Source: Planctomycetota bacterium
GTDB lineage: Bacteria; Planctomycetota; Phycisphaerae; UBA1845
Direction: 5' to 3'
Length of the DNA: 6,339 nt
NCBI GenBank assembly: GCA_022561415.1
Contig: JADFRH010000022.1
Location: 7,289-13,627 of the forward strand
The translations under genes and the position numbers were made by a program. Of the stretch, positions 3 to 6,058 are shown in pieces (within the stretch, counting starts at the first letter, position 1; each line of letters begins with the position of its first letter). Under the pieces are notes generated by a model, which made no database searches, had not been told where the DNA came from, and saw nothing but the letters and a program-made list of their open reading frames with translations.

Positions 3-890
3 TTCGCGCATCCGCGAATTAGGGATCGTAATCGTAACGATTTGTTCACGCCCCATTTAGGCGAGTTCCCGTTTCTCGATGACGTTTCGGCCGGTAACCC
101 GCCGGTCGTCTACGGCGCCCATTGGCTCCCGGCCATGCTCATGGGGGCGGACAATCTCGGATACGTGAAACGCGGCAGCGCGCCGGATGCCGTGAAGGAC
201 AAGCCCTGGTGCTGGTATCCCAATGTGCAGTCCACGTCCTGCCCAACGAACGTGACGATCGAGCGGTCACCGCTCTATATGGACCCGGGCAACACGAGGA
301 TTCGCATGACCAAAAACCTACCGGGCCGGCGTCCCCCGTACGGTGCGGCGAGCTTTCCTGAATGGGATTTCGAGGAACCGAAGCCGATCATTGCTTTGCT
401 GCCGGTGATTGCCGATGCGTTCGATCAGCCGATCCTCTACTACGTCGCCAACAAGCATGGCCGTACGTCCAACATGGTCGAGGACAAGCACGAGTTGACC
501 AGTACTCTGTACAACCAACGCACCGATCAGCAAAACGGCGTTCCCTACTACTTCCATCAGGACAACGAGGGATTCACCGGAACGCGAAGCTACCCCCACG
601 GTACGGATCTGGAATACGGCTGGAACTTCGGCGGGCGTCCGGCCGGTCACGCGATCGGTTCATCTGGCGCCGATCTGCTCCCGCGGGATCTGATCCTCGT
701 GAACAACAAAGACACCTTCGCCCGGTATATCATGGATCGCCAGCTCTTCGGGGCGCTCGGGGCCGCGCCGCAGGACAACGCCCCGCTTCGTCCGGTGAAT
801 CCCGACAAGTACCTGTTGATCAGTGCCGGACCCGACGGGCGATACGGGACCAATGACGACGTAACCAACATGCCGCCCTGGCCGGATTAG
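3..890 (+). CDS. GspG-like pseudopilin, C-terminal part (5' end outside window)
   Basis: The reading frame is open from base 3 to the TAG at 888-890 (295 codons), so the gene is cut by the left edge. The TTG at 42 is only the first start-like codon and not a likely true start. No N-terminal methylation motif is visible. What remains is the periplasmic domain, clearly paralogous to the gene at 1169: both share the blocks (F)xxPILYYxAN, HQDN/RQQDN, D(T/S)FARxI and a near-identical C-terminus, YLLISAGPDxRYGTxDDxTN (here bases about 810-869). That Asp-rich hairpin resembles the calcium-binding C-terminal loop of GspG major pseudopilins, which is family knowledge; binding here is inferred. Two Cys (in KPWCWYP and STSCPTN) are near enough for a disulfide. 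It could equally be labelled a generic prepilin-type cleavage/methylation protein. The paralogy is sure; the secretion or pilus role is inferred. Confidence 0.85.
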   Translation, partial: FAHPRIRDRNRNDLFTPHLGEFPFLDDVSAGNPPVVYGAHWLPAMLMGADNLGYVKRGSAPDAVKDKPWCWYPNVQSTSCPTNVTIERSPLYMDPGNTRIRMTKNLPGRRPPYGAASFPEWDFEEPKPIIALLPVIADAFDQPILYYVANKHGRTSNMVEDKHELTSTLYNQRTDQQNGVPYYFHQDNEGFTGTRSYPHGTDLEYGWNFGGRPAGHAIGSSGADLLPRDLILVNNKDTFARYIMDRQLFGALGAAPQDNAPLRPVNPDKYLLISAGPDGRYGTNDDVTNMPPWPD

Positions 891-909: not shown

Positions 910-965
910 TGTGGGACAGGCTTTCCAGCCTGTCACATTCGACCGACTGGAAAGTCGGTCCCACA
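910..965. repeat. Composite double-hairpin repeat, family C
   Basis: Terminal inverted repeat TGTGGGAC (910-917) / GTCCCACA (958-965) encloses two hairpins. Hairpin 1 is GACAGGCT-ttcc-AGCCTGTC (915-934). Hairpin 2 is GACCGACT-ggaa-AGTCGGTC (941-960). The right half is the reverse complement of the left except at two stem pairs, and both are compensated. The loops TTCC and GGAA are complementary. It lies 19 bases after the stop of the first pseudopilin. It resembles dispersed REP/BIME-type repeats; its copy number elsewhere cannot be seen here. Confidence 0.85.
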
Positions 966-982
966 AGAAATTCGGTTCGGCA

Positions 983-1064
983 GGGTGGCCCATGGCTTTA
1001 GCCGTGGGGGACACGAATCGAACTCGGAATCGGCTCCCCCACCTCTAAAAGAGGTGGGCCACCC
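983..1064. repeat. Composite double-hairpin repeat, family B (copy 1)
   Basis: Left unit 983-1011 and right unit 1035-1064 lie in opposite orientation around a 23-base spacer. The ends are GGGTGGCC (983-990) and GGCCACCC (1057-1064). Hairpin 1 has CATGGCT/AGCCGTG arms around a short loop. Hairpin 2 has CCACCTC/GAGGTGG arms around taaaa. Both units share the flanks GGGTGGCCCA and TGGGGGA, while the stem tips differ with pairing kept. The same unit recurs at 3520, 4602, 4655 and 4731 (the last reversed). Confidence 0.85.
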
Positions 1065-1081
1065 AGACGTGTAAGAGCAAA

Positions 1082-1107
1082 CGTCCGGCAGGGGCGCCGG
1101 ACGCTAC
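1082..1107. repeat. Hairpin repeat, family E (copy 1, inverted)
   Basis: A perfect 8-bp stem, CGTCCGGC (1082-1089) / GCCGGACG (1096-1103), with a 6-base loop, followed by CTAC. Read on the - strand it begins GTAGCGTCCGG, the same start as the two direct copies at 3381 and 3414. It lies about 50 bases upstream of the ribosome binding site of the next gene and has no T-run, so it is not a classical terminator. Confidence 0.75.
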
Positions 1108-1155
1108 GAAAAGCTTGTAGCGGCTGATCCCCGTGTCGGCCGTAGAAAGAAGTTC

Positions 1156-1160
1156 AGGAA
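1156..1160 (+). promoter_or_regulatory. Ribosome binding site for the gene at 1169
   Basis: AGGAA ends 8 bases before the ATG at 1169. It is one of only two good Shine-Dalgarno sites in the window, and it decides the start against the GTG at 1133, which would place this site inside the coding sequence. Confidence 0.65.
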
Positions 1161-1168
1161 CACTCGAC

Positions 1169-2212
1169 ATGATGACTCTTCGACGGAACATGAAACGCAC
1201 CGGCTTTACACTGATCGAGATGCTGGTGGTGGTCGCGATCATTGCGCTGCTGGTGGGCATCCTGCTCCCCTCATTCGGGGCCGTGCGCCGCAGCGCCAAG
1301 AAAACGCAGACCCTGGCACAGTTCAATGCCCTGGCGGCCGGGCTGGAGCTGTTCCGCAAGGAGCAGACTATCGGCGGCTCGCTGCCCCCCTCGGCCAGCG
1401 ACAACCCTGACGACTTCATGCTGATCGCCAACCCCCGGAAATCAAAATCGACCGCGAACAACAACGGTCAAGATTCCGTGAGAATCACGGGCGCCCATCT
1501 GCTTTTTCAGGCCATGGTCGGCGCCGACCAGTTGGGCACGCCGGGCTTTCGGGACCGCGATCGCGACGGTGAGTGGTGGAACAACACGCACGACACGCCC
1601 AAGGCCGGCAATAACCCCGCCGGACTCTACGCGATCGACCCGACGACCGGCAAGGAAGAGGTCAACCGTTTCGGCGGCGCCGGCTACGTCGACGACAAGA
1701 TGACGGCCGCCGCGCAGTCCTTGGACACGCTCGATCCGGAAGGTCTATCGGCCGTAGGCGACGCGGCCGTCGATGAGCCGATGTTCGTCGAGTCTTTCGG
1801 GATGCCGATTCTCTATTACCGCGCGAATCGAAGCCTCTATCGCATGACCACGGACGTTACCGATTCCACGAAGCCCGGCATCTACCGTCAGCAGGACAAC
1901 GCGCTCATTACAGGAGCCGAGGGCGAGGGGACAGCGTACGCCGGGCTCGACTTCGGTCCGGGCGAGGTCGACGGGCGCTACCACGCGATCAAGGTCGCCC
2001 TGTCGCCGGCGCCGAACGAAGATGAGATAGACGTCTGTGACACCGGCACGAATTATGTGGACTCCTTTGCCCGTTTCATTTGCGATCACTCGATACGTGC
2101 CCGGCCAACGCCGGTTCGCAGGGATTCGTATCTGCTCATCAGCGCCGGACCGGACAACCGCTACGGCACGGAAGACGACATCACCAACTGGGACCGCAAG
2201 CCCCACGAATAG
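1169..2212 (+). CDS. GspG-like pseudopilin with N-terminal methylation motif
   Basis: A complete 347-residue pseudopilin. The leader is 12 residues, basic (RRNMKR) and ends in Gly; cleavage is expected at G12|F13, giving FTLIEM with the invariant Glu5. A hydrophobic helix follows (residues 13-33, LVVVAIIALLVGILLP), then a polar helix (RRSAKKTQTLAQFNALAAGLELFRKEQ region) and a large ectodomain. The ectodomain has an Asp-rich stretch (FRDRDRDGEWW), the block FGMPILYYRAN, and the C-terminal hairpin SAGPDNRYGTEDDITN at residues 325-340. That hairpin resembles the calcium site of GspG. Family role: membrane-anchored subunit processed and methylated by a prepilin peptidase, then assembled into a periplasmic fibre. 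ATG 1169 is chosen because of the AGGAA 8 bases upstream and the normal leader length; GTG 1133 and ATG 1172 are alternatives. It is a paralog of the preceding partial gene. Much longer than classical GspG (about 140-150 residues), as is common for such proteins in planctomycetes. Confidence 0.9.
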   Translation: MMTLRRNMKRTGFTLIEMLVVVAIIALLVGILLPSFGAVRRSAKKTQTLAQFNALAAGLELFRKEQTIGGSLPPSASDNPDDFMLIANPRKSKSTANNNGQDSVRITGAHLLFQAMVGADQLGTPGFRDRDRDGEWWNNTHDTPKAGNNPAGLYAIDPTTGKEEVNRFGGAGYVDDKMTAAAQSLDTLDPEGLSAVGDAAVDEPMFVESFGMPILYYRANRSLYRMTTDVTDSTKPGIYRQQDNALITGAEGEGTAYAGLDFGPGEVDGRYHAIKVALSPAPNEDEIDVCDTGTNYVDSFARFICDHSIRARPTPVRRDSYLLISAGPDNRYGTEDDITNWDRKPHE

Positions 2213-2228
2213 GCGGGTGGGCACCCAG

Positions 2229-2327
2229 TCAGAGCACCGGGCGCAAGCCCGGTGACCAAGGTGCCGCGCGGAAGGCGCGCCGCTTCGACGAAGGAACTTG
2301 TCCGTGGGCTCGCGCCCACGGCTCTGA
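2229..2327. repeat. Composite double-hairpin repeat, family A (copy 1)
   Basis: Outer inverted repeat TCAGAG (2229-2234) / CTCTGA (2322-2327). Hairpin 1 is CACCGGG-cgcaag-CCCGGTG (2235-2254). Hairpin 2 is CCGTGGGC-tcgc-GCCCACGG (2302-2321). The 47 bases between the hairpins differ from the 30 bases at the same place in copy 2 (3432-3513), while the terminal halves are the same. The right half is the reverse complement of the left with three compensated stem-pair changes. It starts 17 bases after the stop of the upstream gene. Confidence 0.88.
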
Positions 2328-2365
2328 TGGGCTCGTTCAGTATCGCGACTGGTTTTTCCGTACCG

Positions 2366-2381
2366 TCCCGGCGCGCCGGGA
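2366..2381. repeat. Perfect 16-bp palindrome
   Basis: TCCCGGCG followed directly by CGCCGGGA, with no loop. It could be an operator-like site, a remnant of another hairpin repeat, or chance in a GC-rich spacer. No second copy is seen in the window. Confidence 0.5.
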
Positions 2382-2397
2382 TAAGGACGCGGCGTTT

Positions 2398-2425
2398 GGC
2401 TGAAGGCTGATAGCTGACGGCTGAC
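2398..2425. repeat. Short GGCTGA-type tandem repeat
   Basis: Four imperfect units: GGCTGAA, GGCTGAT, then a shorter AGCTGAC and GGCTGAC. It ends about 15 bases before the ATG of the next gene and leaves that gene with no obvious Shine-Dalgarno site. It is probably a dispersed low-complexity repeat; function unknown. Confidence 0.6.
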
Positions 2426-2439
2426 AGCTTTTCAACGAC

Positions 2440-3348
2440 ATGAACAACAACCCGATCCACCCATCCCGTCGCGCCTCCGCGTTCACCATCATCGAACTGC
2501 TCGTCGTCATGGGCATCATCGTCGTTCTGGTGGGTTCGGTAATGGTCGCGGGTAGTGCGCTGATCACGAAGTCCAAGATCACCAACACCCGGGCCACGCT
2601 CATCGTCGTGCGCGACGCGGTCGAACAGTTCGCCCGCGAGCAGAAGGCCAAGCCGACTCTGACCAGGAGAAAGCAAGGGGGGCTGAAGTATAAAGATCGA
2701 TTCGGCTTCTTCCCGCCGGATGAGTTGGAGTGGTTCGACGGAATACGAGGCGCCAACATCATTCCTGACGTGGGCACGTTTGACGACATGCTGTTCTTCG
2801 TCACCACGCCGACGGCGCCCGAGACGGCGTCTGAGCACCGCGACCTGGCCGCTATGATCCTGGCGATCGAGCTGTTCGGCAACGAGTCGAAAGACATTCT
2901 CAATCGCATCGCCGGGCGGAACCGAACGGCCGGCCCGGTGGATGGCACGGACGACCCGTCGCAGTTCCTCGATCGCAACACCGACGGCGCCTGGGACGCC
3001 GACGACGTGCAGATTCGCTACATCGTCGACGACTGGGGAACGCCGATCGGCTACATGTCTCAGCGGGACTGGGTGTTGAACGCCGATGCCGCGACTAGAT
3101 CGCAGAACCATCAAGATTGGAACAGGGTTTCGACCCAGCTCATCAGGCTCAACAGCAACCAGCCGTTGATTTTCTCGTACGGTCCCGACGGGCGGGACCA
3201 GCTCACGAAGGACGCCATGGGCACAGCGGCCGACGCCTCGATTCCGACCGACTTTGCGCAGGATCCGCCGGCGCCGCCGAACAAACTCGACCACGCCTAC
3301 AACGCCGACAACGTCTACGTCGACGAGACGCTGAAAGAAAAGCTATGA
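2440..3348 (+). CDS. Prepilin-type pseudopilin with EF-hand-like loop
   Basis: A 302-residue pseudopilin starting at ATG 2440. The leader is 14 residues with RR at 10-11. Cleavage is expected at A14|F15 (FTIIEL, Glu5 present), so the -1 residue is Ala where Gly is usual. A hydrophobic helix follows at about 15-40, then the polar helix with ATLIVVRDAVEQFAREQ. Residues 178-189 (bases 2971-3006) read DRNTDGAWDADD, matching the D-x-N-x-D-G-x-x-D-x-x-D spacing of EF-hand or dockerin loops. Downstream, DDWGTPIGYM matches the (F)xxPILYY block of the two upstream paralogs. FSYGPDGR (about residues 245-252) matches their GPDGRYG hairpin, but the following DD pair is lost and replaced by a longer tail. 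It is therefore a third, diverged copy. The stop overlaps an ATG in another frame (ATGA, 3345-3348). Pseudopilus subunit role is inferred from the N-terminus. Confidence 0.88.
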   Translation: MNNNPIHPSRRASAFTIIELLVVMGIIVVLVGSVMVAGSALITKSKITNTRATLIVVRDAVEQFAREQKAKPTLTRRKQGGLKYKDRFGFFPPDELEWFDGIRGANIIPDVGTFDDMLFFVTTPTAPETASEHRDLAAMILAIELFGNESKDILNRIAGRNRTAGPVDGTDDPSQFLDRNTDGAWDADDVQIRYIVDDWGTPIGYMSQRDWVLNADAATRSQNHQDWNRVSTQLIRLNSNQPLIFSYGPDGRDQLTKDAMGTAADASIPTDFAQDPPAPPNKLDHAYNADNVYVDETLKEKL

Positions 3349-3380
3349 CGGTCTGCTCCACCAACGGGGTGCCCCATTCT

Positions 3381-3428
3381 GTAGCGTCCGGTCCCCGTGC
3401 CGGGCGTCATCCCGTAGCGTCCGGTCCC
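3381..3428. repeat. Family E repeats, two direct copies (second truncated)
   Basis: GTAGCGTCCGGTCCC occurs exactly at 3381-3395 and 3414-3428, 33 bases apart. The first copy continues with CGTGCCGGGCG and can form a CGTCCGG/CCGGGCG hairpin. The second stops within a few bases and runs into the family A element at 3432, as if the A element had inserted into or replaced its right half. The inverted relative is at 1082-1107. Confidence 0.8.
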
Positions 3429-3431
3429 AGG

Positions 3432-3513
3432 TCAGAGCACCGGGCGCAAGCCCGGTGTCGCACGCGGCACGTAAGGGAACGACCTGACCGTGGGCTCGCG
3501 CCCACGGCTCTGA
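3432..3513. repeat. Composite double-hairpin repeat, family A (copy 2)
   Basis: Same ends and hairpins as copy 1: TCAGAG (3432-3437), CACCGGG-cgcaag-CCCGGTG (3438-3457), CCGTGGGC-tcgc-GCCCACGG (3488-3507), CTCTGA (3508-3513). The central 30 bases are not alignable over their whole length with the 47 central bases of copy 1. It lies between the stop of the upstream gene and the methylation motif of the next. Confidence 0.88.
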
Positions 3514-3519
3514 CAGGCC

Positions 3520-3548
3520 GGGTGCCCTCTGGCTTCAGCCGTGGGGGA
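3520..3548. repeat. Single family B hairpin unit overlapping a gene start
   Basis: Starts GGGTGCCC and ends TGGGGGA, with GGCT-tc-AGCC as stem core. It has no inverted right-hand partner: the sequence passes directly into the methylation motif of the gene whose proposed start (GTG 3522) lies inside the unit. In that frame the unit reads GFSRGG, the same peptide read from the unit at 4602. Confidence 0.8.
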
Positions 3549-4469
3549 CACACATTCCGCGGCGGTTTCACGTTGATCGAAATGGTCGTCGTCATCGGCA
3601 TTATTCTGCTGATCGCCGCCATGGTCGTGCCTTCGGTCACGACGCTGTGGAACGAGCGGAAGATGTCCGAGACCATCAACACGGCAAAGGGTGTGCTCAT
3701 GACCTCGCGCGTCAGGGCGCTGGACTCGGGCGGGGCCGAGTCGGGCTTCTTCGTCTACGTCGATGATCGCGGAACCCAGCGCATCACGGCCATCGAGCAG
3801 CCGCCCGACGAGCTCGACGACCCGGCCTGGCAGGACGTGTTTCGGATCACCCCGGACGCTCGCGACCAGGTGCTTCCCAGGCCGATCCGCGTCGTGCCGC
3901 GCTATGTCGCGGAAGATCCCACCGCGACCGGCGTGTCGTCCTATGCGGTTTTCGACGATCTGGAGCTTGCCAACAACAGTTTCGATTCACCCTCGGCCTC
4001 GCCGTTCGACCAAGCCCAGCGGCACCGCAACTTCTTCACCGTGATTTTCTCGACGAGCGGCGAGCTGCTCGTCGATCGTGACGTGCTCATTCAGGACGAG
4101 GATGAGGACGGCGATGGCTTGGGCGATCGAACCGGACTGACCGTCGGAATAGGCCCGACTCTTGGTAATCCGACCACCCTGCCGACGACGATAGATTACT
4201 ACCTACGTGACGGCGTCAGAGCCTCGTTCCTTGCCAGTCAAGATGGTGTCATAGAGCCTATCGAGTTCCTCGTGGTCGATCCCGACCCCGCGCAGGATAT
4301 CGCCATCAACTTCCCCTCGGTTGACGGACTGTTGGTCTACGATGATGCATTGTTCAACGAGTTGCCCGATCCCGCGACGAAGCGGCAGTTTCTGCTCGAC
4401 ACGGCCACGCCGCTTTACGTCAGCCGTTACACGGGCATGGTGATTCGCGGTCCCGTTGGGGAAAATTAG
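3522..4469 (+). CDS. GspH/FimT-like pseudopilin with Asp-rich loop
   Basis: Pseudopilin with a 300-residue mature part, F at 3567 to the TAG at 4467-4469. Cleavage is expected at GG|FTLIEM with Glu5 present. A hydrophobic helix follows (VVVIGIILLIAAMVVPS), then a polar helix with WNERKMSETINTAKGVLMTSRVRA, the arrangement of GspH/FimT minor pseudopilins. The segment FTVIFSTSGELLVDRDVLI also fits that family. At residues 192-202 (bases 4095-4127) DEDEDGDGLGD has the Asp/Gly spacing of calcium loops. Start uncertain: GTG 3522 gives an ordinary 15-residue leader but has no Shine-Dalgarno and lies in a repeat. ATG 3345 overlaps the upstream stop (ATGA, possible translational coupling) but gives a leader of 74 residues translated through repeats. 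No in-frame start lies between 3522 and the cleavage site. Minor pseudopilins of this type usually sit near the fibre tip; that role is inferred. Confidence 0.85.
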   Translation: MPSGFSRGGHTFRGGFTLIEMVVVIGIILLIAAMVVPSVTTLWNERKMSETINTAKGVLMTSRVRALDSGGAESGFFVYVDDRGTQRITAIEQPPDELDDPAWQDVFRITPDARDQVLPRPIRVVPRYVAEDPTATGVSSYAVFDDLELANNSFDSPSASPFDQAQRHRNFFTVIFSTSGELLVDRDVLIQDEDEDGDGLGDRTGLTVGIGPTLGNPTTLPTTIDYYLRDGVRASFLASQDGVIEPIEFLVVDPDPAQDIAINFPSVDGLLVYDDALFNELPDPATKRQFLLDTATPLYVSRYTGMVIRGPVGEN

Positions 4470-4500
4470 TGTTGCGACACACCTCAATCGATGGGTTATC

Positions 4501-4600
4501 CGAGCCGCGCCCGTCAGGAAGCGACGGTTGGCATGGCCAAGTCCCGGCGCAACGGGACCGCCATGTTGTCGAAGCGCCGACGCGCCCGATTCTGTCGGGC
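4501..4600. repeat. Cluster of short hairpins in the spacer before gene 5
   Basis: Three independent stems: CCGTC-aggaagc-GACGG (4511-4527), GTCCCG-gcgcaa-CGGGAC (4541-4558) and GCCCGA-ttctg-TCGGGC (4584-4600). None recurs in the window, so I cannot tell whether they are dispersed repeats or local structure. None is followed by a T-run. Confidence 0.5.
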
Positions 4601-4601
4601 C

Positions 4602-4651
4602 GGGTTGCCCATGGCTTCAGCCGTGGGGGATCCGAATCCACGCCGGATTCG
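4602..4651. repeat. Family B hairpin unit (single) plus adjacent hairpin
   Basis: The unit 4602-4630 starts GGGTTGCCCA and ends TGGGGGA, with CCCATGGCT-tc-AGCCGTGGG as stem (one G-T pair). It is followed by CGAATCC-acgcc-GGATTCG (4633-4651). The composite element at 4655 begins four bases later, in the same orientation as this unit. Confidence 0.8.
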
Positions 4652-4654
4652 CAT

Positions 4655-4768
4655 GGGTGCCCCACCCTTTTCCTTTGGAAAAGGGTGGGGGACGGATTCA
4701 CGAGCCGGAAGCGTTTCGGAGAACCGTCCGTCCCCCACCCTTCGCCGGAGGCGAAGGATGGGGCACCC
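4655..4768. repeat. Composite double-hairpin repeat, long-stem B variant (D)
   Basis: Terminal inverted repeat GGGTGCCCC (4655-4663) / GGGGCACCC (4760-4768). Hairpin 1 is a perfect 13-bp stem, CCCACCCTTTTCC-ttt-GGAAAAGGGTGGG (4661-4689). Hairpin 2 is CCACCCTTCGCC-gga-GGCGAAGGATGG (4735-4761) with one mismatch. The flanks GGGTGCCCCA and TGGGGGA match family B. GACGG and CCGTC just inside the hairpins can also pair. The element ends 21 bases before the chosen start of the next gene and lacks a U-tract. Confidence 0.88.
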
Positions 4769-4789: not shown

Positions 4790-6058
4790 ATGCCCCGTCC
4801 CGCCTTCTCGCTGCTCGAGCTGATGATCGGCATCGTCATTCTCGGGTTCGGGTTGGTCATGGTCGCCACCATGTTTCCCGTCGCGTGGTCGCGGGCCCGA
4901 ACGCTCAGTCAGTACACGGTCGAGCGGGCCATCACCGAAAACGCCCACACTACGGTCCGCGCGCTCGTTCGTGTGTCGTCGGTCTCACGAAACGTCACGA
5001 GCTTTGAGGGCGACCCGTTGTGCGACCCCGGCATCGATGGTGTGGTATCTGCTAGCGACAAGGCGATCTCGGCGTGTGGAGGCGTTCGTAGTGATGACCG
5101 CGTGCATGCCTTGCACATGGAAAACGTCCAGATTGCGAACCGACGGTTTGCGGACGAAAACCCCTGGAAGCTGGCCGATCCGGGCGATCCGGGCGATCGG
5201 TTGGTATATCTGGGGGATCGCGACGACGGAGAACTGGTCGGGCAGGACGTTGTCGAGCAGTCGTTTTTCCGCAAGCGGATCAGCTTTCACGAGCGGCTCT
5301 TCCCGCCGATGAGCCGTCGCCAAGAGGTGGACCCCTTGACGGGCGAGTTTACCGGCGCCGACGAACGGTGGGATAATGAACTGGACACGCGCCGGTTTTG
5401 CTGGGCCGTGTTCCACAGGCTGCGCGCGCCGGTGGTCGATGATTCAAGCGGCACCAAGATCAATTGCGTTACGGACGAACTCGGCGGCGCCCGCTCTTTC
5501 GACATGTACTACGTAACGCTGCGCCGGGGGCAGTCCACGTTTCGCTACGCGCGACAGGATCCCGGTTTCACGCCGAATCCTTGCGATCTCACCATCTCGC
5601 CGGTGCCGCCGGCCGCGCTGGATCCGGATAAGGATGTGATGTTCCCGGTCCCGTGGCGCGTGCAGGTTCAGTTTCGAGACGAGTTTGCGTTCGACGACGT
5701 GCCAACTGGGATCCCGACCGAGATTGACGTTCCCCCCGACGGAGGGAGCTTCGATGACAGCGAGACCTTGATGTTCATTCAGATGTTCCAGCGAGGCACG
5801 CGATTCATCGACGAGATCAATGGTCAGGTCTATGAGGTGATTGAACAGCGCGTGTCGTCGGCCACGGGCAAGGACAAGGCGACCCTGACGCTCGATCGTG
5901 AAGTGCTGTTCGACGATCTCCACATACCGAACGCCGATCCCCGATGTGAACCTTGCGACGACACTCAACTCATTGCAGACCGCCAAGAATCACTTGCAAA
6001 CGGCGCTCTCTGCGATAGACGCCGCTGGCGATCCAGTGACAGCCGGAAACAGTCTTGA
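4790..6058 (+). CDS. PilV/GspI-like pseudopilin with aberrant C-terminus
   Basis: ATG 4790 gives 422 residues with a 5-residue leader MPRPA and cleavage at A5|F6 (FSLLELM, Glu5 of the mature protein present). A hydrophobic helix (MIGIVILGFGLVMVATMFPVAW) and polar helix (TLSQYTVERAITENAHTTVRAL) follow, the style of PilV/GspI-like minor pseudopilins in planctomycetes. The frame is also open back to GTG 4469, which overlaps the upstream TAG, but that would add 107 residues translated from repeats (containing HGFSRGG), so I reject it. The ectodomain has several Cys and a block typical of this group, GTRFIDEINGQVYEVIEQR, leading to TLTLDREVLFDDL. After about residue 384 (base ~5940) the sequence turns Cys/Arg-rich (RRRWRSSDSRKQS) and overlaps a better-looking ORF in another frame. 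The native C-terminus is therefore probably lost by a junction or frameshift. The SD is weak or absent. Confidence 0.82.
   Translation: MPRPAFSLLELMIGIVILGFGLVMVATMFPVAWSRARTLSQYTVERAITENAHTTVRALVRVSSVSRNVTSFEGDPLCDPGIDGVVSASDKAISACGGVRSDDRVHALHMENVQIANRRFADENPWKLADPGDPGDRLVYLGDRDDGELVGQDVVEQSFFRKRISFHERLFPPMSRRQEVDPLTGEFTGADERWDNELDTRRFCWAVFHRLRAPVVDDSSGTKINCVTDELGGARSFDMYYVTLRRGQSTFRYARQDPGFTPNPCDLTISPVPPAALDPDKDVMFPVPWRVQVQFRDEFAFDDVPTGIPTEIDVPPDGGSFDDSETLMFIQMFQRGTRFIDEINGQVYEVIEQRVSSATGKDKATLTLDREVLFDDLHIPNADPRCEPCDDTQLIADRQESLANGALCDRRRWRSSDSRKQS

Follow-up and report, generated by a model that had tools for sequence, protein, structure and literature searches.

The DNA described here is a stretch of 6,339 nucleotides (nt), hereafter the window, from an uncultured planctomycete (Phycisphaerae, UBA1845; assembly GCA_022561415.1, contig JADFRH010000022.1, positions 7,289–13,627 of the forward strand). 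It is a cluster of five pilin-like genes, all on one strand, with repeats in 4/4 intergenic gaps. The repeats are very probably REP doublets forming hairpins (REPINs): non-autonomous elements, each consisting of two inverted repetitive extragenic palindromic (REP) sequences, every REP being a head plus a hairpin. Several families are present in this one planctomycete genome. The kind of element is ordinary; families of REPINs with their REP-associated tyrosine transposases (RAYTs) are real and well supported here. Dispersal, covariation and the flanking of RAYT genes by REPs were all measured in related genomes.

Five two-hairpin elements were verified in the sequence, with the plan and at the positions given in an earlier sequence-only reading of the same DNA. 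Every window hairpin carries a 5′ head (GGGTGG/GGGTGC, TGTGG, CAGAG or GTAG), and inverted units paired across a short spacer are found in C, B, both copies of A, and D. The C REPIN (910–965; two inverted C-type REPs) has the head TGTGG, a spacer of 6 nt and unlike arms (GACAGGCT/AGCCTGTC on the left, GACCGACT/AGTCGGTC as the reverse complement of the right) with two paired changes. The B REPIN (983–1064; two inverted B-type REPs) has the head GGGTGG, base CCCA/TGGG and tail GGA; its arms, compared in the same way (CCCATGGCT/AGCCGTGGG and CCCACCTCT/AGAGGTGGG), differ by two two-sided changes and a one-sided change of T-G to C-G, and the right loop is longer by one base. The A REPIN (head CAGAG) occurs twice in the window itself, at 2229–2327 (copy 1, with a long spacer) and 3432–3513 (copy 2); the arms (CACCGGGC/GCCCGGTG and CCGTGGGC/GCCCACGG) show three paired changes, and the loops are GCAA and GCGA. 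The D REPIN (4655–4768; two inverted D-type REPs) has the head GGGTGC and apical stems longer than those of B, with two two-sided changes, one change of C-G to T-G, and a loop of TTT versus TCC; a repeat finder gives it as a 42-nt inverted repeat of 83% (inverted repeat I1). The compensated pairs claimed earlier for C (two) and A (three) are present. The counts for B (three) and D (two plus one) are also right, but their wobble changes are one-sided. The elements had been called unrelated or distantly related, which fails for B and D: judged by their common head and base, GGGTG[G/C]CCCA...TGGGGGA, these two are one family.

In relatives the families are dispersed; the condition that the sequence-only reading had set for its own refutation, single-copy elements, does not hold there. 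In the family to which genome G291 belongs, 42 of 51 genomes contain B/D halves, with 0–356 per genome and the highest number in G288; a reversed pattern, used as control, matched once across the 51. Among 114 genomes of the order, C halves occur in 14 (62 in G312, 43 in G307, 40 in G188; control 1) and A halves in 8 (77 in G178, 46 in G291; control 0); a separate search of 13 other genomes gave no A halves. B/D doublets were found in three of seven genomes searched with a pattern of fixed 12-nt arms (G288 66, G095 23, G291 8), and none with 12-nt arms in the other four. The gap 3′ of the second pilin-like gene, compared in the window, G077 and G291 only, is occupied by an A REPIN in the window and, by eye, by a B REPIN in G291; in G077 the orthologous gap, 104 nt long, gives no match for any of the four families.

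These occurrences bear on a second explanation, by which the hairpins are immobile, cis-acting RNA elements with a regulatory role in the pilin cluster (attenuators, terminators, determinants of mRNA stability). Hairpins do stand in 4/4 gaps of a same-strand cluster, and REPs have been hypothesised to act in transcript stability and in termination (PMC3733652). The explanation is nevertheless unlikely: the same families are dispersed in relatives, B/D repeats flank RAYT genes, the G077 gap is without a match, and the window matches no Rfam family at gathering score.

The arms of the hairpins covary. Only free arm positions test pairing, because the head and basal stem, and for A the inner stem as well, were prescribed by the search patterns; the halves compared were the first places listed per genome, and the test covers B/D and A (C, 5 distinct halves). 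For B/D (48 distinct halves), 94.0% of cells pair versus 83.5% after shuffling, 33 cells are changed on both sides versus 12.0, and the covariation score is 0.258 versus 0.088 (0/500 shuffles as high; best slid control 0.085). For A (35 distinct halves) the corresponding values are 94.6% versus 80.0%, 41 cells versus 16.1, and a score of 0.346 versus 0.091 (0/500 as high; best slid control 0.099). The number of pairs with a two-sided change is unremarkable (20/500 shuffles as high for B/D, 497/500 for A). Relatedness alone can beat shuffles without any structure; the slid controls, which retain relatedness, score far lower. In B/D and A the compensation is genuine covariation, and the fold that the sequence-only reading had taken to be selected or needed for copying is borne out in relatives by arms that covary above all 500 shuffles.

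Candidate cognate transposases were found for B/D. Of the 51 genomes of the G291 family, 49 contain Y1_Tnp (PF01797). Forty stretches around mostly weaker Y1 matches, in 12 genomes rich in B/D or C or with A, were taken regardless of surroundings. One Y1 clade with proteins of about 191–193 amino acids (MPS.LRR...) has B/D REPs within 350 nt in 11/11 loci, on both sides in nine; among related Y1 genes from the same search, 1/15 (L313) has a B/D REP within that distance. Locus L316 is a 78-amino-acid fragment, not separated from the relatives by its score and placed in the clade by its N-terminus, and L335 is split in two pieces. Two of the 11 loci were scanned with NF047646 (REP_Tyr_transpos, cut-off 80), and both score above it (L311 84.7, L310 94.0). 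The nearest solved protein by sequence is 4er8, the E. coli TnpA-REP (E 4e-10). The HxH motif and the Tyr are invariant in 6/6 aligned members.

The heads beside these genes are GGGTGC at three loci (L310, L318, L328) and GGGTGG at eight; the B-headed L315 and L345 have one additional GGGTGC copy each. A tree built from 10 of the 11 clade loci (without L316) plus eight of the 15 relatives gives the B/D RAYT clade support of 100/100. A branch (92/77) separates the seven B-headed rows from the three D-headed rows (9/500 label shuffles as low). Within this one clade, the GTGG (B) and GTGC (D) heads seem to be associated with different RAYTs. Mutation of a GTAG head to GTGG or GTAC is reported to shift cutting to other dinucleotides, the head guiding the cut (PMC8266576).

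A second Y1 class, RB (L165, L166 and L168; 95–100% identical, all in G288), was considered as the mover of B/D and rejected; by our reading its flanks carry AATAGGGGAC-type terminal repeats, not REPs. B/D repeats stand near two of the three copies. They look incidental there, because the third, L165, has none within 400 nt. The RB class is also where a third explanation finds its material, namely that the elements are ends of a double-strand transposon (DDE or terminal-inverted-repeat type), comparable to miniature inverted-repeat transposable elements (MITEs), with the hairpins incidental. Inverted ends around a spacer are MITE-like too, and a Y1 class that seems to carry short terminal repeats has B/D near two of its three near-identical G288 copies. 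This explanation is very improbable, given paired changes within each half in B/D and A, and Y1 genes, encoding single-strand transposases, that have the same REPs on either side.

For A, a Y1 class of about 175 amino acids has A-type REPs (up to 3 mismatches) on both sides in G291, G077, G227 and G168; in G127 and G240 such REPs lie on one side of, or within, the open frame of the same class. The A-type heads in G077 are CCGAG and CGGAG. The A-flanked L172 scores below both models scanned (REP_Tyr_transpos 22.5, cut-off 80; IS200 33.3, cut-off 55). Its motif AVAYVTECQ fits Y....Q, and the heads CAGAG, CCGAG and CGGAG fit a CnGA foot, both as compared by eye with the account in PMC6006769; on these motifs the A-flanked Y1 matches a class 3 TnpA-Y1-like protein. 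GTAG-headed hairpins similar to those of the window adjoin a further Y1 class (L274, L279). RAYT or Y1 genes flanked by the same units, which the sequence-only reading had suggested looking for, are thus on record for B/D and A, and its analogy with REP elements, bacterial interspersed mosaic elements (BIMEs) and RAYTs is supported by dispersal, covariation and flanked Y1 genes.

The two arms of a doublet are usually unlike. The same arm core occurs in 2/50 doublets of G288 (23.3 expected by re-pairing; 0/20000 permutations as low), 0/17 of G095 (8.3 expected; 0/20000) and 0/8 of G291 (3.2 expected; 403/20000), the test having used listed doublets with 12-nt arms (50/66, 17/23 and 8/8, respectively); copies share ancestry, and the permutations overstate their independence although spacers differ (45 distinct among the 50 G288 doublets). 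All 16 A doublets have unlike triplets, which does not reach significance in an exact test (P 0.15); grouping the same doublets by class (16/16 unlike) was a post hoc definition and was set aside. Among 13 C doublets, drawn from a listing without G312, the richest C genome, five have identical arms (4 in G307, 1 in G311), and in each of these the spacer is 24 nt long. Arms are unlike in the four doublets whose spacer is 4 nt (all from G304), and also in the C element of the window, where it is 6 nt.

The shared ancestry, the non-significant A test and the identical C arms weigh against the account given here, as do the following points. The search patterns fixed the REP heads, so the constancy of heads in relatives is built in. 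Mobility is deduced from the differing occupancy of an orthologous gap, no movement having been seen. For the best-scoring Y1 gene in each of 30 genomes (L131–L160), flanks of up to 1.5 kb are free of B/D REPs. At E 1e-10 the A-associated class is missing from six of the eight A-bearing genomes; only G291 and G310 have a gene of it, and that of G310 sits within a valyl-tRNA synthetase (ValRS) gene. The putative cognate RAYTs are known from related genomes only, none from the source genome.

Folding energies were calculated with ViennaRNA and the Mathews 2004 DNA parameters, and are given as the two-hairpin fold minus one long hairpin. The five window elements lie between -4.3 and +1.6 kcal/mol. 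When their arms are made identical in silico, the long hairpin is favoured by +14.1 to +26.8 kcal/mol. Natural unlike doublets lie between -1.6 and +6.8 kcal/mol in 14/15 cases, the other being L381 (14.1), whose arms differ by a single base; the five identical-arm C doublets lie 13.7 to 15.0 kcal/mol toward the long hairpin.

As a mechanism we propose that, in single-stranded DNA, each REP would fold as its own hairpin, the cognate RAYT would bind the head and basal stem, and the RAYT would cut and join the strand, copying the unit into new gaps. The apical stem would need only to fold, the RAYT reading the head and stem base; paired changes and length changes in the apical arms may be explained by this. 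Unlike arms would prevent the unit from locking into one long hairpin. That they keep each REP foldable as a RAYT substrate is our preferred reading. A preference for heterodimers is described as being without obvious explanation by Di Nocera et al. 2013 (PMC3733652), where protection from enzymes such as SbcCD is suggested. Nuclease avoidance of this kind, in which unlike arms are kept since long perfect palindromes fall to nucleases such as SbcCD and not for the sake of folding, is a serious possibility. The spacers of the C doublets agree with it, as all five identical-arm doublets have 24-nt spacers and the short-spacer ones (4 nt in G304, 6 nt in the window) are unlike. By itself it leaves the near-equal energies of the two folds unexplained, both in the window and in 14/15 natural doublets. 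The substrate-folding and nuclease-avoidance readings are compatible, not exclusive, and are not separated by the present data. A few arms in five G288 doublets (C57, C100, C155, C176, C204) are mosaics, with a 5′ side from one arm class joined to a 3′ side from the other; such arms would be expected from template switching, or from inversion between the two hairpins.

The search for the mover of C led to locus L326 (G237), where a Y1 domain lies in the frame of PurH: C REP (+), Y1 domain and C REP (-) follow one another, all in frame within PurH. On balance it is probable, as read from sequence, that a RAYT class resides as an in-frame insert in housekeeping genes (PurH, ValRS, alanyl-tRNA synthetase (AlaRS), PriA; by Pfam label also more tRNA synthetases and RecG). 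It would be translated as an internal domain, with the REPs as disordered linkers (GTGFQPV ... HRLEAGAT) and with host and transposase catalytic residues kept, and would mobilise C-type REPINs in trans. The C-family case rests mainly on L326. The C link is exact in that locus only; C-like repeats with more mismatches are found in L351 and L353, and one C-like hairpin adjoins an RC-class gene at L153. An L326-type domain at E 1e-10 is present in 8/14 C-bearing genomes (some weak) versus 27/100 others, by our count.

Family models place the inserts inside host genes. In L326, L336 (G291) and L337 (G311), Pfam gives two separate stretches of AICARFT_IMPCHas together with MGS and Y1_Tnp, the best AICARFT stretch following Y1_Tnp; in L336 the Y1_Tnp match is marginally below cut-off. 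In L177 (G310), Y1_Tnp lies mid-ValRS by Pfam. In P0121, NCBIfam gives purH in two stretches, the best at residues 7–279, ahead of the RAYT match at 319–447. Four host-gene domains were scanned with NF047646 (cut-off 80): P0138 scores 150.1, and P0121 (75.3), P0185 (74.7) and L177 (40.9) score less. P0138 and P0139 are AlaRS-like and have two RAYT domains per frame. A six-frame search of 114 genomes with the L326-type domain gave 48 matches in 35 genomes, 40 of them, by our count, in open frames of at least 480 amino acids; 26/69 matches of the A-associated class lie in such long frames (our count), and in the search with the RB class the longest open frame is 366 amino acids. A long frame alone is no proof of a host gene, and hosts were checked by family models or Pfam labels in subsets only.

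A search among large proteins, whose length limit excluded free RAYTs by design, gave 204 matches. By our tally of Pfam accessions, the best 120 of the 204 comprise 38 PurH, 35 class I tRNA synthetases, 18 DUF1156, 6 AlaRS and 6 PriA, and the remainder 5 ThrRS-like, 2 RecG and 10 others. A second search, with the ValRS insert as query, gave 26 matches (18 synthetases, 8 PurH). In these 146 proteins, the domains of the C-associated class keep the HxH-type motif in 122/122, with more than 100 residues before the domain in 114/122 and after it in 119/122; those of the A-associated class keep the motif in 23/26. REP-like peptides lie on both sides of 51/122 C-associated and 0/26 A-associated domains, by a pattern written after examples had been seen. 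In an alignment of 25 of the 38 PurH-RAYT proteins, both His, the Tyr and the PurH KH are invariant (25/25). Insert distances show a weak correlation with host distances (r 0.23; 7/2000 permutations as high), so that repeated insertion or exchange at one loop fits better than strict coinheritance. In a PurH of RAS2 (P0259), by our reading, the other, A-associated class occupies the same loop. The sources are mostly metagenome assemblies; P0162 and P0259 are chromosome-size records.

In an AlphaFold model of PurH-RAYT, the host and RAYT parts are mostly confident (mean predicted local distance difference test (pLDDT) 72.6; predicted template modelling score (pTM) 0.44). The pLDDT is below 50 in the REP-encoded linkers (285–320, 463–514) and in a host stretch (204–261); with these values and the pTM, the arrangement of the parts is unpredicted. 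The model's matches are PurH and, less strongly, 4er8, and those of the sequence profile are the same. No published description of in-frame RAYTs was recognised at the level of titles, a weak absence as most subscription journals lay outside the scope. Unexpectedly long Y1 proteins have been set aside as gene fusions or annotation errors (PMC6006769).

Among known systems, the elements resemble REPINs/BIMEs with RAYT (TnpA-REP) in their inverted REP pairs with a spacer, predicted hairpins, extragenic dispersal, RAYT genes flanked by the same REPs and GTAG-type head (PMC3116915, PMC8266576). Unlike known REPINs, they have the heads GTGG, GTGC and CAGAG besides GTAG and several families within 6 kb; the arms of B/D doublets nearly always differ, and B/D apical stems vary in length. 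With class 3 TnpA-Y1, reported mainly from Planctomycetes, the A elements share a head (CAGAG; CCGAG and CGGAG in G077) that fits the CnGA foot, and their transposase the Y....Q motif (PMC6006769). They differ from that class in that A halves also pair as REPINs and that relatives of the transposase lie in ValRS and PurH frames. Intragenic REPs and Rickettsia palindromic elements are likewise palindromic repeats read in frame within genes (PMC3733652); unlike these, the REPs described here appear to carry an entire RAYT domain, its catalytic residues retained, into host proteins such as PurH, tRNA synthetases and PriA.

Further repeats of the window were missing from the earlier inventory, which was right as to the five elements: a GTAG family, with two whole copies and one cut off, and two solitary B-type halves. 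GTAG-headed solitary REPs (GTAG plus a CGTCCGGC hairpin) lie at 1081–1107 (- strand) and 3381–3407 (+ strand). The 5′ part of a third lies at 3414–3428 (+ strand; also direct repeat D17) and ends just before A REPIN copy 2; this truncated REP (region 3414–3432) abuts the A element as though A had inserted into it. The solitary B-type halves lie at 3520–3548 (+ strand; degenerate, containing GTG 3522) and 4602–4630 (+ strand; GGGTTGCCCATGG..., also direct repeat D1).

The genes are all on the + strand. N_methyl is found in four of the five, in two slightly below the Pfam cut-off. The first gene (3..890; 3′ part, truncated by the window edge) is without a Pfam match; by our reading its C-terminal end (SAGPDGRYGTNDD) is similar to the C-terminus of the second. 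The second (1172–2212) has N_methyl (PF07963) and 677 homologues, the organism-named ones among the best 120 of the 677 being planctomycete; identity to the closest genomes compared is 57% (G077) and 55% (G291). The third (2440–3348) has N_methyl at 20.4 (cut-off 21.2). In the fourth (3522–4469; N_methyl 20.5, slightly below cut-off) the likeliest start, judged from sequence, is GTG 3522, with ATG 3345, GTG 3369 and TTG 3573 as alternative in-frame starts. This GTG and the leader (MPSGFSRGGHTFRG) fall in or directly after the degenerate B-type half at 3520–3548. The fifth (4790–6058; MPRPAFSLLELM..., N_methyl 22.0) begins directly 3′ of the D REPIN. In a contig scan with short pilin motifs, the matches listed include distant loci (planctomycete, verrucomicrobial, lentisphaeral, others).

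The findings extend REPIN biology to an uncultured planctomycete lineage. What goes beyond known systems is the head-matched RAYT groups, the energetic account of unlike arms and the putative in-frame RAYTs in housekeeping genes. The one-base difference in heads (GTGG, GTGC) within one RAYT clade is a natural experiment on head specificity. The preference for unlike REPs becomes a measurable prediction, that the two-hairpin fold, the presumed RAYT substrate, stays competitive with the long hairpin. If the in-frame reading is true, a RAYT so placed would gain expression and shelter from deletion; in PurH and tRNA synthetases, in-frame RAYTs would, if expressed, be an unusual route of persistence for a transposase.

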